Shown here: positions 20,986-27,048 of the stretch, one piece after another | Layout of the letters: each line of letters starts with the position of its first letter | How positions within the stretch are numbered: position 1 is the first letter of the stretch | Assembly (NCBI RefSeq): GCF_004403185.1 | Contig: NZ_SOHJ01000013.1 | Location: 90,245 to 154,244 of the forward strand | DNA from: Cryobacterium suzukii | GTDB lineage: Bacteria > Actinomycetota > Actinomycetes > Actinomycetales > Microbacteriaceae | Length of the DNA stretch: 64,000 bases | Direction: 5' to 3' | The notes under the pieces: generated by a model | The model's input: only the letters and a program-made list of their open reading frames with translations | What the model was told of the DNA's origin: nothing | Database searches by the model: none | Translations under genes and position numbers: made by a program

Positions 20986-21087
20986 GGTATCCCGGGACTT
21001 GACATGGGTCCAAGTTCTGCCCAAAAACGCTTCTGGCTCCCTTGAGGTTCCCAGAAGCAGGTACGACTCCGCATGAGAGGTGTTCGA

Positions 21088-22377
21088 ATGGCAACCACCG
21101 TCAAGACTGAGGTGACCGATGAGTCTGTCACGACTCCGGTAGTCCCGCCGGTCAAGAAGACCGTCACTAAGGCCGCCGCCGCAAAGGCCGCCGCCGCCGA
21201 AGCCGCCGCGACGAAGAAGTCTGCAGCTGCTGACCTGGCTACCGAAAAACCGGCCCCAAAGAAGCGCGCGACGAAGGCGAAGGTCGTCAAGAAAGACGAC
21301 GAAGCCGACGTCGAGGGCGGTCCAGAAGCCGACGACGACGAGTCAGACGAGGACAGCACCAAGCGTTCCGCGTCGACCGAACCGCTCCCCAGCGGGGCTC
21401 TCGTGCTCTCGCTCGTCGACGACGACGACGAGGTTCCGGTCTACTCCAGCGCCATCACGGGCGCCACGGCCGACCCGGTTAAGGACTATCTCAAGCAGAT
21501 CGGTAAGGTCGCCCTGCTGAACGCCGCCGAAGAGGTCGAGCTGGCGATGCGCATCGAAGCCGGCCTGTTCGCCGAAGATAAGTTGTCGGAGATGACCGAC
21601 GTTGAGAAGAAGAACGCGCTGGGTCGTGAGCTTCAGTGGGTCGCCAAAGACGGCGCCAGGGCCAAGAGTCACCTCCTCGGCGCCAACCTGCGTCTCGTCG
21701 TGTCACTCGCCAAGCGGTATACCGGTCGCGGCATGCAGTTCCTCGACCTGATCCAGGAAGGCAACCTCGGCCTTATTCGTGCCGTCGAGAAGTTCGACTA
21801 CACCAAGGGCTTCAAGTTCAGCACTTACGCCACCTGGTGGATTCGGCAAGCCATCACCCGGGCCATGGCCGACCAGGCCCGCACGATTCGAATCCCCGTG
21901 CACATGGTCGAGGTCATCAACAAGCTCGCCCGCGTTCAGCGCCAGATGCTGCAGGACCTCGGTCGCGAACCCACTCCGGAAGAGCTCAGTCGCGAACTCG
22001 ATATGACGCCCGAAAAGGTCGTCGAAGTTCAGAAGTATGGACGCGAACCGATCTCCCTCCACACTCCGCTCGGCGAAGACGGCGACAGCGAATTCGGTGA
22101 CCTCATCGAGGATACCGAAGCCGTCGTTCCAGCGGATGCCGTGGGCTTCACGATGCTGCAAAAGCAGCTCGAGAGCCTGCTCGACTCGCTCTCCGAGCGC
22201 GAAGCCGGGGTGATCCGTATGCGCTTCGGCCTCGGTGACGGAATGCCGAAGACCCTCGACCAGATCGGTGACACCTTCGGGGTGACGCGCGAGCGCATTC
22301 GCCAGATCGAGTCCAAAACGATGGCGAAGCTTCGTCACCCGTCCCGGTCGCAGTCCCTACGCGACTACCTCGAGTAA
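21088..22377 (+). CDS. sigA: Principal RNA polymerase sigma factor (SigA/RpoD)
   Basis: Housekeeping sigma-70 factor, 429 aa. The N-terminal 110 residues are Lys/Ala-rich then acidic, typical of actinobacterial SigA/HrdB. Region 1.2 starts near [16 protein letters not shown]. Region 2 has [19 protein letters not shown] with -10 recognition [14 protein letters not shown]. Region 3 has [14 protein letters not shown], and region 4 ends in the helix-turn-helix [22 protein letters not shown] 21088 (MATTVKTEV) is chosen over ATG 21073 because GAGAGGTG precedes it at ribosome-site distance. This is the factor expected to read the TANNNT boxes seen through the window. Confidence 0.96.
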
Positions 22378-22411: not shown

Positions 22412-23698
22412 GTGCGGTTCGTGAGTTCCCTTCGGTACGCCCCCGCGATTCTGGTCGGTCGGGCCGTTCGTGTGCTGGCGAGATGGCGCAAACCGGGCGG
22501 TGGCTCTGCCATCCCCGGAGTCGTCGTCAACCGGATCGCCCCTGGCTTTCTGGCCGCAACGCTGAACGGGTTTCCGCTCGGTCTCGTTATCGTGACCGGG
22601 TCAAGCGGCAAATCGACGACGACCAAGATGCTCGTCGCTATTCTTCGCGCCCACGGCCTCTCCGTGTTCACCAACCAGTCGACGGCCAACATCAGCCAGG
22701 GTCTGACCAGTGCTCTTCTGGAACAGGTCAGTCTCGCTGGTACGATCGCCGACGATGTCGCCGTGCTTGAAATGGATGAGGGACACGGAGCGTTCATTGC
22801 CGGCTCGCTGACTCCGCGAGTCGTTGCCCTGACCAACGTCATGGTCGACCAGATCGATCGGTTCCACGACTCCGAAATGGTCGCTGCCCTTCTGGCGAAA
22901 ATTGCCGCTCGGGCGACAGATTCGGTCGTGCTCAATGCCGATGACCGGTACCTGGCCGACCTCGGCTCTGCGCTCGAACCTGACGTTGCGGTGTCCCGCT
23001 ACGGCGTCACCGCCGAGGTCCTCGCTCAGTATCCTCGTGGACTCGGTTATGCCGACACCGCACCGACCCGCCTGCCGGCCGGAAGCGGACTGCAGCTCAC
23101 TCGGGTGGTCGGCCGAGACGCCGACGTTCAGTTTGCAACGGGCGTTCACGGCATCCGCTTGCCGGCCCGCGGCATCCACTATGCCGTCGACGCGCTGACC
23201 GCGTTGAGCACGGCCAGCGCGACCCTCGGCGACCGCTTCGTTCCGGCGATGGCCTGTGCGGCGTTGTCGGCTATGCCGGCCGTGTTCGGACGTGGCGAAG
23301 TGGTGACCGTTGGTGGCAAAACCATCGAGTTCGTTCTGGTGCAAAACCCGTCGAGCTTTCAGCTCAATGTCGACAGTCTCGAACCGGGCACAGAGCAGAT
23401 TCTGGTGATCATCGGCTCAGATGTTCGGGACCCGTCGTATTTCTGGCCGGTGAACACTTCCGGGCTCGGCCACGTGCTCATTGCCTCCGGACTCAAGGCG
23501 CACGAGATCGGCCTGCAGCTGGCCTATGACGACGTTGCCGTTGACCGCATCGAACCGGATGTACCGACTGCCCTCGACGCGTTCCTGGCGCTGCCCGATC
23601 CCGCATCCGGGGTGAAAACCATTATTTTTTCCGCCGACGGAATGCGGCGCACGCGCGCGCACCTCGGCCTCGTCTCCAACTCTGAGGACCCGGTATGA
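22412..23698 (+). CDS. murT: MurT-like Mur ligase, degenerate ribbon
   Basis: Mur-ligase-fold protein with a C-terminal DUF1727 domain, 428 aa. In the canonical enzyme MurT activates the alpha-carboxyl of D-Glu in lipid II with ATP, and GatD supplies ammonia. The ATP loop GSSGKST (Lys67) and Mur middle-domain features (EMDEGHGAF, LTNVMVDQIDRF, VLNADDRYLADLG) are intact, so ATP-dependent ligation is plausible. Two canonical features are missing. The Cys4 zinc ribbon normally found after the NADD motif is absent (no CxxC there), and the DGRDxSWxWD motif reads DVRDPSYFWP (337-346). GTG start 22412; no clear ribosome site. It overlaps gatD by 4 bp. It probably still acts on D-Glu, but not necessarily as an amidase. 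Confidence 0.85.
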   Translation: MRFVSSLRYAPAILVGRAVRVLARWRKPGGGSAIPGVVVNRIAPGFLAATLNGFPLGLVIVTGSSGKSTTTKMLVAILRAHGLSVFTNQSTANISQGLTSALLEQVSLAGTIADDVAVLEMDEGHGAFIAGSLTPRVVALTNVMVDQIDRFHDSEMVAALLAKIAARATDSVVLNADDRYLADLGSALEPDVAVSRYGVTAEVLAQYPRGLGYADTAPTRLPAGSGLQLTRVVGRDADVQFATGVHGIRLPARGIHYAVDALTALSTASATLGDRFVPAMACAALSAMPAVFGRGEVVTVGGKTIEFVLVQNPSSFQLNVDSLEPGTEQILVIIGSDVRDPSYFWPVNTSGLGHVLIASGLKAHEIGLQLAYDDVAVDRIEPDVPTALDAFLALPDPASGVKTIIFSADGMRRTRAHLGLVSNSEDPV

Positions 23699-24456
23699 CC
23701 GCCACTTCGTCTGACCGGCCGTTCACGGTCGTCTCGCTGCTGCCGCGCCTGCTCAACACGAATGGCGACGCCGGCAATGCCAGAGTGCTCGCGCAGCGCA
23801 TTCGGTGGAGCGGCCACGACGCGCTCGTGGTCGAGGTGCATTCTCGCGCTGACCTGCCCGAACACGTGGACGCAGTGTCGATCGGTTCAGGAACGGATGC
23901 TGACCTCGTGCCGGCCAGGGACGCACTGCGTACGTTGGTCGAAGAACTGCGCGTCTGGTCCAACTCGGGTGTGCCCATCCTGGCCGTCGGAACCGGGTGG
24001 GAATTGCTGAGCTGGGGCATCGAGCTCGCCGATGGTTCTGTGCTGGAGGGACTCGGGCTCGTGGCCGGCCACGCCGTGCCGCGCGCTGCACGCGCAACCG
24101 ATGACATCATTGTCGCATCGAAGTACGGGCGGTTGATCGGGTTCGAAAACCATGCCCGCGACTATGTCGGCGCCGAAGCCAGCCCGCTCGGACGGGTGAT
24201 CTACGGCACCGGCAACGCGGATGCTCGGGGGAGCGGACCGCAGATCGAGGGGCTGACCATGGGCGAGGTGTTTTGTACCCACCTGCATGGACCGGTGCTC
24301 GCGCGCAACCCTGCCCTGGCCGACCACCTGCTGCAGGCAGCCTTCACCCGATCCGGACTCGACTATTCACGGGGAGCAAGGTCAGAATCCGTCGATGAGA
24401 CCGCGCGGGCGGCACGCAATCAAGTGGCCGTGCGGCTTGGGCAGTTAGCGGAATAG
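23695..24456 (+). CDS. gatD: GatD-like glutamine amidotransferase lacking the nucleophile Cys
   Basis: Class I GATase-fold partner of MurT, 253 aa. In working GatD the glutaminase nucleophile is a Cys in a LAxC-like elbow. Here the aligned segment reads PILAVGTGWELL, with Gly99 at the Cys position and Glu where the family has Gln. The histidine motif THLHGPVLARNP (His198) and LIGFENHARDY remain, so the fold is kept. Hydrolysis of glutamine by the usual mechanism is not possible without the Cys. ATG 23695 overlaps the murT stop (ATGA), so the two proteins are made together. The pair may transfer a different amine in this organism; see findings. Confidence 0.85.
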   Translation: MTATSSDRPFTVVSLLPRLLNTNGDAGNARVLAQRIRWSGHDALVVEVHSRADLPEHVDAVSIGSGTDADLVPARDALRTLVEELRVWSNSGVPILAVGTGWELLSWGIELADGSVLEGLGLVAGHAVPRAARATDDIIVASKYGRLIGFENHARDYVGAEASPLGRVIYGTGNADARGSGPQIEGLTMGEVFCTHLHGPVLARNPALADHLLQAAFTRSGLDYSRGARSESVDETARAARNQVAVRLGQLAE

Positions 24457-24969: not shown

Positions 24970-27048
24970 GTGAGCTCTGACTATTCCGCGCGCCACCTGT
25001 CAGTCCTTGAGGGACTCGAGGCAGTGCGCAAACGCCCCGGCATGTACATCGGTTCCACCGACTCGCGCGGATTGATGCACTGCCTGTGGGAGATCATCGA
25101 CAACTCCGTCGATGAGGCCCTGGGCGGACACGGTGCCAGCATCAACATCGAGCTGCACTCGGACCACAGCGTCGAGGTGCGCGACACCGCCCGGGGAATC
25201 CCGGTCGATATCGAGCCCAAGACCGGACTGACCGGAGTTGAAGTCGTGTTCACGAAACTGCATGCCGGTGGAAAGTTCGGCAGCGGGTCGTACGCGGCGT
25301 CCGGTGGTCTGCACGGCGTGGGAGCATCCGTCGTCAATGCTCTGTCCGAACGTCTCGATGTCGAAGTCGACCGCGACGGCAAAACCTGGGCCATGTCCTT
25401 TCACCGGGGCGAACCGGGCCTGTTTGCCGACTCGGGGGAGAAGAGCCCCGATGCCCCGTTCACTCCGTTTGAGAACCAGAGCGAACTGCGGGTGATTGGA
25501 AAGGTCAAGCGCGGGGTCACGGGAACCCGCATCCGCTATTGGGCCGACCGTCAGATCTTCACCAAGGGCGCCACGTTCCAGACCGACGAGGTACTGGGTC
25601 GTGCCCGTCAGACCGCATTTCTTGTACCCGGTCTCGCGATCGAGGTCGCCGACCGGCGCACCGATGAGCCCGTGATCAGCCTGTTCCAGTTCGACGGCGG
25701 TATCTCCGAATTTGTCGAGCACCTCGCAACGGATGCCCCAATCACCGACACCTGGCGGCTGACCGGCAGCGGAACCTTCAGCGAAACCGTGCCAGTGCTC
25801 ACCGACAAGGGTGCCATGGTGCCCACCGAGCTCGTTCGCGACTGCCAGGTGGATATCGCCCTGCGCTGGGGGACCGGCTACGACACGATCCTGCAGAGCT
25901 TCGTCAACATTATTGCCACGCCAAAGGGCGGAACCCACCAGGCCGGCTTCGATGCCGGTCTGCTCAAATTTTTGCGCGGTCAGGTCGAACTGAACGCCCG
26001 ACGGCTGAAGGTCGGCAGTGACAAGCTCGACAAAGACGACGTGATGGCGGGCCTCACCGCCGTACTCACGGTGCGTTTGCCCGAACCGCAGTTCGAGGGG
26101 CAGACGAAGGAAGTGCTCGGTACGCCGGCGGTTCGGGCAATCGTCGCCAACGTGGTCGCCAAGGCCATGGCTGAGCGGTATGCCTCCCCGAAACGCGATG
26201 ACAAGACCCAGTCGGCGCTCCTGCTCGACAAGATCGTCGCCGAGATGAAGTCGCGCATCTCCGCCAGGGCCCACAAGGAGACCCAACGGCGCAAGAACGC
26301 CCTCGAAAGTTCTTCCCTGCCGGCGAAGCTGGTCGACTGCCGCAGCAACGACGTGTCCACGAGTGAGCTCTTTATCGTTGAAGGCGACTCGGCCCTCGGC
26401 ACCGCCAAGCTGGCCCGCGACAGCGAGCATCAAGCGCTGTTGCCGATTCGGGGCAAGATCCTGAACGTGCAGAAGGCATCCGTTGCCGACATGCTCTCCA
26501 ACACGGAGTGCGCCTCGATTATCCAGGTCATCGGCGCCGGCTCAGGGCGCAGCTTCGACCTATCGGCGGCCCGCTACGGCAAGGTCATCATCATGAGCGA
26601 CGCCGACGTCGACGGCGCCCATATTCGTACCCTGCTCCTCACGCTGTTCTTCCGCTACATGCGTCCGATGATCACCGAGGGCCGCGTGTTCGCCGCCGTA
26701 CCGCCGTTGCACCGAGTCGTCGTGATGAACCCCGGCAGCAAACCCAACGAGACCATCTACACCTACTCGGAGACCGAACTGCACGGGGTCCTCAGCGCGC
26801 TCGAGAAGAAGAACCGGCGCTATCAAGACCCGATCCAGCGCTATAAGGGCCTTGGTGAGATGGATGCTGACCAACTTGCGACCACGACCATGGAACGCGC
26901 CCACCGCACGCTGCGGCGGGTGCGCGTGGCCGATGCCGAGTCCGCCGGCAAGGTGTTCGAACTGCTGATGGGCAACGACGTTGCTCCGCGTAAAGAGTTC
27001 ATCATCGACAGCTCCGACAAGCTCTCACGGGACCGCATCGACGTCTAG
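24970..27048 (+). CDS. parE: DNA topoisomerase IV subunit B (type IIA, GyrB/ParE family)
   Basis: ATPase subunit of a type IIA topoisomerase that decatenates or relaxes DNA, 692 aa. GHKL ATPase motifs: EIIDNSVDEALGG, VEVRDTARGIPVD and GGLHGVGASVVNALS. Toprim motifs: LFIVEGDSALGTA and MSDADVDGAHIRTLL. The C-terminal signature is QRYKGLGEMDADQL. The parE/parC name rests on the location (next to sigA rather than dnaA) and on the convergent parC-like partner; a second gyrase-like role cannot be excluded from sequence. GTG start 24970. Convergent with parC, only 25 bp between the stops. Confidence 0.87.
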   Translation: MSSDYSARHLSVLEGLEAVRKRPGMYIGSTDSRGLMHCLWEIIDNSVDEALGGHGASINIELHSDHSVEVRDTARGIPVDIEPKTGLTGVEVVFTKLHAGGKFGSGSYAASGGLHGVGASVVNALSERLDVEVDRDGKTWAMSFHRGEPGLFADSGEKSPDAPFTPFENQSELRVIGKVKRGVTGTRIRYWADRQIFTKGATFQTDEVLGRARQTAFLVPGLAIEVADRRTDEPVISLFQFDGGISEFVEHLATDAPITDTWRLTGSGTFSETVPVLTDKGAMVPTELVRDCQVDIALRWGTGYDTILQSFVNIIATPKGGTHQAGFDAGLLKFLRGQVELNARRLKVGSDKLDKDDVMAGLTAVLTVRLPEPQFEGQTKEVLGTPAVRAIVANVVAKAMAERYASPKRDDKTQSALLLDKIVAEMKSRISARAHKETQRRKNALESSSLPAKLVDCRSNDVSTSELFIVEGDSALGTAKLARDSEHQALLPIRGKILNVQKASVADMLSNTECASIIQVIGAGSGRSFDLSAARYGKVIIMSDADVDGAHIRTLLLTLFFRYMRPMITEGRVFAAVPPLHRVVVMNPGSKPNETIYTYSETELHGVLSALEKKNRRYQDPIQRYKGLGEMDADQLATTTMERAHRTLRRVRVADAESAGKVFELLMGNDVAPRKEFIIDSSDKLSRDRIDV

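Follow-up and report, generated by a model that had tools for sequence, protein, structure and literature searches.

The MurT/GatD-like gene pair between rpoD and parE

The window analyzed here, a stretch of 64,000 nucleotides of the Cryobacterium suzukii genome, contains rpoD, murT, gatD, and parE in a row, and the reading frames of murT and gatD overlap by 4 bp. The interval between rpoD and parE is referred to as the slot, and MurT/GatD pairs with a residue other than Cys at the GatD nucleophile position as Cys-less. The features of the locus are as follows.

21073..22377, + strand: rpoD (principal sigma factor), an open reading frame; left border of the slot
22412..23698, + strand: murT, encoding a Cys-less-type MurT of 428 amino acids with a GTG start; open reading frame, profile match, and tree
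22598..22618, + strand: MurT ATP loop GSSGKST, with Lys67; Cys-type MurT proteins have GTNGKT/S
23168..23191, + strand: MurT motif RGIHYAVD, which marks the Cys-less clade; its Asp260 occupies the ATP-site position of S. aureus N267
23420..23449, + strand: MurT motif DVRDPSYFWP, including Asp340 (equivalent to S. aureus D349)
23695..24456, + strand: gatD, encoding a Cys-less GatD of 253 amino acids; open reading frame, profile match, and model
23989..23991, + strand: Gly99 codon, nucleophile position, aligned with S. aureus GatD Cys94
24091..24093, + strand: Arg133 codon, kept (equivalent to the glutamine-binding S. aureus Arg128)
24286..24288, + strand: His198 codon, catalytic His position
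24970..27048, + strand: parE-type topoisomerase subunit, an open reading frame; right border of the slot, common to many relatives

In profile searches, the window MurT matched Mur_ligase_M (E 1e-14) and GatD matched GATase_3 (E 9e-13), and the MurT score against MurT_C was 21 bits, under the 25-bit cut-off. Both proteins lie far below the NCBIfam equivalog cut-offs, the pair scoring 84.4 bits against 800 and 103.9 bits against 450, and the nearest solved relatives by sequence are the staphylococcal and streptococcal MurT/GatD proteins. The window MurT is the sole MurT_C match of its own genome; a second canonical MurT/GatD pair, which would have spoken against the original prediction of a new activity for this pair, was looked for and not found among the MurT-profile matches listed (down to E 7e-12).

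GatD lacks the nucleophile, and MurT retains its catalytic residues

Gly99 of the window GatD aligns with Cys94 of the S. aureus protein, as the original prediction had claimed, and His198 and Arg133 align with His189 and Arg128, respectively. Among 151 distinct Cys-less GatDs, the Arg133 position is occupied by Arg in 141, and the His198 position by His in only 87, with Gln, Gly, or Lys in others; the window protein keeps the His. Since there is no thiol at the GatD site, glutamine-dependent amidotransferase activity is hardly possible, which bears out the claim that GatD is no longer a glutaminase. The retained Arg133 means that glutamine or another amino acid could still be bound. An alternative thiol within GatD was considered and rejected: other Cys in the window GatD is not conserved, and 112 of the 144 Cys-less GatD domains that were long enough, among the 151, are without any Cys. 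The AlphaFold2 model of the window GatD has a pLDDT of 95, and its best PDB match is S. aureus GatD (6gs2_A, TM 0.85).

The Mg/ATP residues K67, E120, E123, N142, and R294 are intact in the window MurT and kept in all 150 Cys-less MurTs. Asp340 is kept in the window and in 148 of the 150 Cys-less MurTs with a filled column. Of the corresponding Asp mutants described, S. aureus MurT D349N was dead, according to the available part of PMC6113224, and pneumococcal MurT D355A had merely reduced activity, according to that of PMC6085368. The Cys-less MurTs are nevertheless distinguishable from the Cys-type at the ATP site: the second residue of the ATP loop is Ser in 145/150, versus Thr in 55/55 Cys-type proteins (GS in 0/55), and the ATP-site Asn position is Asp in 145/150, versus Asn in 54/55. 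The MurT model (AlphaFold2, pLDDT 91) gave TM values of 0.50-0.63 to solved MurT and of approximately 0.65 to MurF and pMurC.

Two MurT features had been put forward as signs of lost amidation chemistry. The window protein does read DVRDPSYFWP where canonical MurT has DGRDxSWxWD, but because Asp340 is kept, the motif is altered, not lost. Likewise, with one Cys between the NADD motif and DVRD, there is no Cys4 ribbon, as had been noted, but this is not special to the window: ribbon loss was rejected as a sign of new chemistry because Cys-type pairs of other families are also without the ribbon, with 0-2 ribbon Cys in all sampled loci of families f6, f12, f18, and f3 and in all but one of f4. 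The available text of PMC6085368 places the MurT Cys tetrad in "some Actinobacteria". Neither the ribbon loss nor the DVRD motif is evidence for new chemistry.

The residue after Asp340 is Ile in Curtobacterium, Frigoribacterium, and Humibacter, and Pro in Cryobacterium, Clavibacter, Subtercola, and most of the Leifsonia read. That Ile and Pro follow walls with Orn/Lys and with 2,4-diaminobutyrate (DAB), respectively, fits the names seen and is only a lead, since the Ile rows form a single clade of the tree.

Cys-less pairs are concentrated in the Microbacteriaceae and are under purifying selection

In a sample of 120 Microbacteriaceae genomes (G000-G119), MurT was found in 98, 87 by a match to the window GatD and 11 more by the MurT profile, and 22 were without it. 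These 22 genomes conflict with the description of murTgatD as universal in Actinobacteria in the available part of PMC6085368. The GatD nucleophile position in 90 family loci is occupied by Gly (55), Ala (14), Ser (3), Asn (2), Thr (1), His (1), or Cys (14), so that 76/90 loci have a non-Cys residue. Once the profile-found loci are added, His-type GatD occurs in seven genomes, and the set gains a few divergent members. A Cys-type pair alone is present in 12/120 genomes; G054 and G066 hold both a Cys pair and a Cys-less pair, and the GatD of G038 is not readable.

Cys-less GatDs were also looked for outside the family: of 41 loci fetched across nine further families in the same order, every one has both Cys and His (Cys-less, 0/41). 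The order-wide search scored nine candidates per genome, and absence of MurT from other families is for that reason not claimed. A DNA signature for RGxHYAxD, which misses known carriers such as G106, matched 8/21 family genomes and 1/373 other genomes of the class, with four matches in the reversed control; in the single outside match, no MurT was found in the fetched stretch. The proposal that loss of the GatD Cys tracks exactly with B-type peptidoglycan, the group-B status of the compared groups being that of genus descriptions and not of the sampled genomes, did not hold: 22 of the 120 genomes have no MurT (16 of them encode a CofE-like ligase, and 6 encode neither system), and the 12 above have only a Cys-type pair.

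In a FastTree phylogeny of 143 MurT sequences, for which the program flagged long branches, 95 of the 97 family MurTs with a non-Cys, non-His partner fall in one clade (SH 100). Eleven His-type MurTs form a second clade (SH 99), and the remaining two non-Cys, non-His sequences lie nearby. Two separate clades without the GatD Cys require at least two losses of the Cys. The window MurT groups with that of Cryobacterium luteum, inside the Cys-less clade.

The glycine at the nucleophile position and the fast divergence of GatD (27-63% identity to the window protein among 40 family GatDs) might suggest a pseudogene or relaxed vestige. Comparison of the window with a congener (G078) gave dN/dS values of 0.10 for GatD and 0.08 for MurT, indicating purifying selection, and the original prediction was right that Lys67, His198, and the 4-bp overlap are intact and that this is not simple decay. 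With high-confidence folds and a conserved gene pair as well, decay is already contradicted by the selection measure and can scarcely be the explanation. Chance or sequencing error behind Gly99 was rejected on the strength of the recurrence of non-Cys residues across the family loci and by dN/dS.

The rpoD-parE slot holds either MurT/GatD or an unrelated ligase system

Within the fetched stretch, rpoD lies upstream of 69/76 Cys-less loci and of 0/14 Cys-type loci (Fisher 1e-11), and seven His-type loci (L161-L167) also follow rpoD. The slot is empty, with parE coming next after rpoD, in all six Cys-only genomes that were inspected. Sixteen family genomes of the 22 that lack MurT encode a CofE-like ligase instead; the other 6 (6/120) have neither system. 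The CofE-like gene is in the rpoD slot in 14 of these 16; in G044 the locus is cut by the contig end, and in G094 the CofE/ATP-grasp pair lies away from rpoD. The CofE-like profile is strong in 16/22 MurT-lacking and 0/97 MurT-bearing genomes (Fisher 3e-15), with G053 set aside, an odd, divergent genome that has a weaker CofE homolog beside MurT/GatD.

Among 18 post-rpoD regions of MurT-lacking genomes, 15 encode a protein of approximately 233 residues assigned to PF01996, the F420-ligase family; 13 encode an ATPgrasp_ST protein (PF14397) of 340 residues, 8 an alanine-racemase-like protein, and 2 a diaminobutyrate aminotransferase that scores above the cut-off for EctB. The slot CofE-like protein scores 56 bits against PF01996 (cut-off 25) and 33 of the 181 bits required by the CofE equivalog TIGR01916, whose cut-off is not reached. 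The ATP-grasp profile is strong in 20/120 genomes, comprising 14/16 CofE genomes, 4/7 His-type genomes, G018, and G099; the window genome is not among them.

The same alternation is found within a single genus (g85). Of its 59 genomes, 10 have a Cys-less MurT and 49 a CofE-like gene (partial in G715), with no overlap and none without either. The GatD residue is Gly in all ten MurT genomes, and rpoD adjoins the ligase in 10/10 MurT loci and in 5/5 CofE loci looked at. A further set of at least 120 named stretches was collected by matching the 3' end of rpoD; the pattern used was designed on family sequences, and the set therefore cannot test absence outside the family. No record title in this set names another family; a few titles go no further than order, class, or phylum, and one reads "Corynebacterium-like". 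Across 120 of them, the slot holds MurT in 109 and a CofE-like gene in 7, is empty in 1 (Amnibacterium sp. CER49), and has too little sequence in 3. The nucleophile position in the 82 readable MurT/GatD loci is Gly (65), Ala (12), His (4), or Ser (1), and never Cys, 27 not being covered. Salinibacterium metalliresistens, Agromyces seonyuensis, and Lacisediminihabitans changchengi are among the CofE-like carriers, and MurT and CofE-like slots both occur under the titles Leifsonia and Agromyces.

The slot might be no more than a hot spot for cell-wall genes, the CofE/ATP-grasp pair doing something else and its exclusion with MurT reflecting clade history. The six genomes with neither system, the displaced pair of G094, and G053, which shows that the two can coexist, agree with this, and the MurT-bearing g85 species could be one clade. 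We nonetheless regard it as very improbable, as the exclusion is seen across genera and in 59/59 genomes within g85, and as both kinds occur under the names Leifsonia and Agromyces.

Racemase and diaminobutyrate genes accompany the slot ligases in relatives

In genus g85, a racemase gene lies no more than 12 kb from the ligase in 10/10 MurT and 34/49 CofE genomes; being near both, it was rejected as a divider of MurT from CofE species. A racemase directly follows GatD in 7/10 loci titled Leifsonia and in 1/2 titled Pseudoclavibacter, and in locus L220 GatD is followed by a diaminobutyrate aminotransferase and a racemase. An aminotransferase over the EctB cut-off is also present in the CofE slots L213 and L217. 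There is no racemase in the slot of the window, and nothing in the window genome is over the EctB cut-off (its own best is 185 bits versus 552). The diaminobutyrate aminotransferase proved uninformative about the MurT class and was rejected as a marker for it: 21/120 genomes are over the cut-off, and the window genome is not among them. Genes for D-diamino-acid supply are thus linked to the proposed bridge ligase in relatives, and not in the slot of the window. The slot racemase is alanine-racemase-like.

A candidate ligase for the group-B interpeptide bridge

The Microbacteriaceae are soil and plant bacteria, and group-B peptidoglycan has been a textbook wall type since the 1970s. To our knowledge, the family is group B throughout, and we know of no bacterium in which the enzyme attaching the group-B bridge to D-Glu has been assigned. 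Among the matches listed in a literature search with little coverage of subscription papers, there was none tying MurT/GatD or CofE to group-B walls. According to the available parts of the respective sources, Cryobacterium walls are B2gamma with DAB (PMC7033078), Cryobacterium strain 1639 has DAB and also ornithine (PMC12113805), and the D-Glu alpha-carboxyl of group-B walls carries the bridge, which in Clavibacter is D-DAB (PMC9603630).

Judging from gene content, residues, and position, the rpoD-parE slot of the Microbacteriaceae probably encodes the ligase that attaches the group-B bridge to the D-Glu alpha-carboxyl, with GatD as a non-hydrolytic partner. For substrate, nucleophile, chemistry, and order of steps, we propose the following. 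MurT would bind ATP and the lipid-linked or UDP-linked precursor and phosphorylate the D-Glu alpha-carboxyl. GatD, having lost glutamine hydrolysis, would stay as an obligatory structural, and possibly amino-acid-binding, partner. Mur ligases form an acyl phosphate that is attacked by an amino group, and here the amine of the bridge residue would attack it, like the incoming amino acid in MurC-F. The bridge residue would be D-diaminobutyrate in Cryobacterium, and D-Orn, D-Lys, or Gly in other genera. The sequence observation behind the original prediction is confirmed by this analysis, and its interpretation, that the pair may attach the first bridge amino acid to the carboxyl activated by MurT, is partly supported.

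The main rival is amidation driven by ammonia, in which the pair would still be a lipid II amidase, MurT using free ammonia on the D-Glu alpha-carboxyl and GatD persisting as a dead scaffold. In S. aureus, the GatD substitution C94G, which makes the Cys-to-Gly change that is fixed in the window GatD, abolishes glutamine use, and MurT still amidates lipid II when free ammonia is supplied at pH 8.5 (PMC3266927, available part). The catalytic MurT residues are conserved in the Cys-less class, and some D-Glu amidation is reported among Clavibacter muropeptides (PMC9603630, available part). At pH 7.5, however, ammonia was not used by the C94G enzyme or by the wild type (PMC3266927). Loss of the Cys is moreover concentrated in a family whose D-Glu alpha-carboxyl bears the bridge, and in G054 and G066 a Cys pair persists alongside the Cys-less one, suggesting two jobs. 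The activity of C94G with ammonia and the inactivity of S. aureus MurT alone (PMC3266927) indicate that a Cys-less GatD can be the needed partner of a MurT that uses a free amine; the swap to the CofE/ATP-grasp ligase families at the same place, with racemase and diaminobutyrate genes alongside, favors an amino acid over ammonia as that amine. On balance, we judge the ammonia-using amidase to be unlikely.

The pair could alternatively add a non-bridge amino acid to the D-Glu alpha-carboxyl, such as the glycine cap that Micrococcus carries at this position, or act on another stem carboxyl. Mur-ligase chemistry permits many amino acids, and the classes differ beside Asp340 (DP versus DI). Group-B walls, however, use the D-Glu alpha-carboxyl for the bridge, and D-amino-acid genes are often in the slot, which leaves this alternative quite improbable beside attachment of the bridge residue.

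In many relatives, an unrelated CofE-like amide ligase and an ATP-grasp ligase may perform this function, in most cases from the same locus, a role that we infer from their protein families and their place. If the two systems are functionally equivalent, the slot would be the genetic determinant of the group-B bridge, occupied by one or the other of two unrelated ligases for the D-Glu alpha-carboxyl, often together with racemase or diaminobutyrate genes, and bridge chemistry would evolve by enzyme swapping at one locus. We lean toward this broader proposal, by a slight preference over its contrary. It would identify the gene behind a wall type long described in textbooks and add a rare example of a glutaminase converted into a partner that does not hydrolyze, and locus content might predict wall chemistry from the genome.

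Several observations were counted against a bridge ligase in the slot: the 12/120 Cys-only genomes, with an empty slot in the six inspected, and the 6/120 with neither system, the off-slot CofE pair of G094, the lack of an EctB-grade match in the window genome and of a racemase in the window slot, the alanine-racemase-like character of the racemase, the retention of Arg133, and the D-Glu amidation described in the available part of the Clavibacter study (PMC9603630).

Comparison with known systems

By its folds and its paired genes, the window pair belongs to the MurT/GatD fold family. With the MurT/GatD isoglutaminyl synthase of S. aureus, S. pneumoniae, and mycobacteria, it shares the adjacent gene pair, the folds, the P-loop Lys, the Mg-binding acids, and the equivalents of D349 and Arg128. 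The window class differs from that enzyme in having no GatD Cys, frequent loss of the GatD His, and no Zn ribbon, and in having a GSxGKS loop, HYAxD in place of the Asn-bearing motif, and a place beside rpoD. The window pair itself agrees with the synthase in its His, its ATP site, and its D349 equivalent, and departs from it in the Cys and in the equivalog scores.

MurC-F and the pseudomurein ligases pMurC and pMurE share with the window MurT the central and C-terminal domains and, presumably, the acyl-phosphate/amine chemistry; unlike them, the window MurT has no N-terminal UDP-binding domain and has a GatD partner. The alternative gene of the slot is in the same Pfam family (PF01996) as CofE, the F420-0:gamma-glutamyl ligase, but is far under the equivalog cut-off and has cell-wall neighbors. 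Enterococci and lactococci offer a precedent for an ATP-grasp enzyme that joins a D-amino acid to a precursor of the wall, their D-aspartate ligase; the slot ATP-grasp gene belongs instead to ATPgrasp_ST (PF14397).

Variation among Cys-less MurT/GatD proteins

A second Cys-less lineage, in which His occupies the GatD nucleophile position, is represented by loci L161-L167, L288, and L313, and Schumannella is among its carriers. The catalytic His of these GatD proteins is replaced by Ile or Leu, and the equivalent of S. aureus MurT D349 is Asn, or Met in one protein. Their MurT proteins retain 4-5 cysteines in the ribbon region, and rpoD adjoins these gene pairs too. The MurT/GatD pair kept in G015 (L081), a single contig of 927303 bp, is Ser-type and fast-evolving, with rpoD adjoining.

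Directly after MurT Asp340, the counterpart of D349, Curtobacterium, Frigoribacterium, and Humibacter carry Ile (L222, L280, and L294), and genera with diaminobutyrate walls carry Pro (L243, L226, and L320). This position may point to substrate choice, but it is only a lead because the sequences with Ile form a single clade.

A short protein consisting only of a C-terminal alanine-racemase domain adjoins the full-length racemase at locus L209 (5445-5990), and such a protein is also encoded immediately upstream of the racemase in many genomes of genus g85.

Distribution of the two systems within the family

Neither a MurT nor a CofE-like gene was found in the family genomes G049, G119, G019, G022, G051, and G062. 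The rpoD-parE interval of G119 contains an apparent ABC-transporter set, and nothing lies between rpoD and parE in G019, G051, and G062. One genome, G053, encodes a highly divergent MurT/GatD with a weak CofE homolog (1.4e-45) adjoining (C1:610493-614392), perhaps an intermediate between both systems. Cys-type and Cys-less pairs occur together in G054 and in G066, making these genomes useful for telling the two functions apart.
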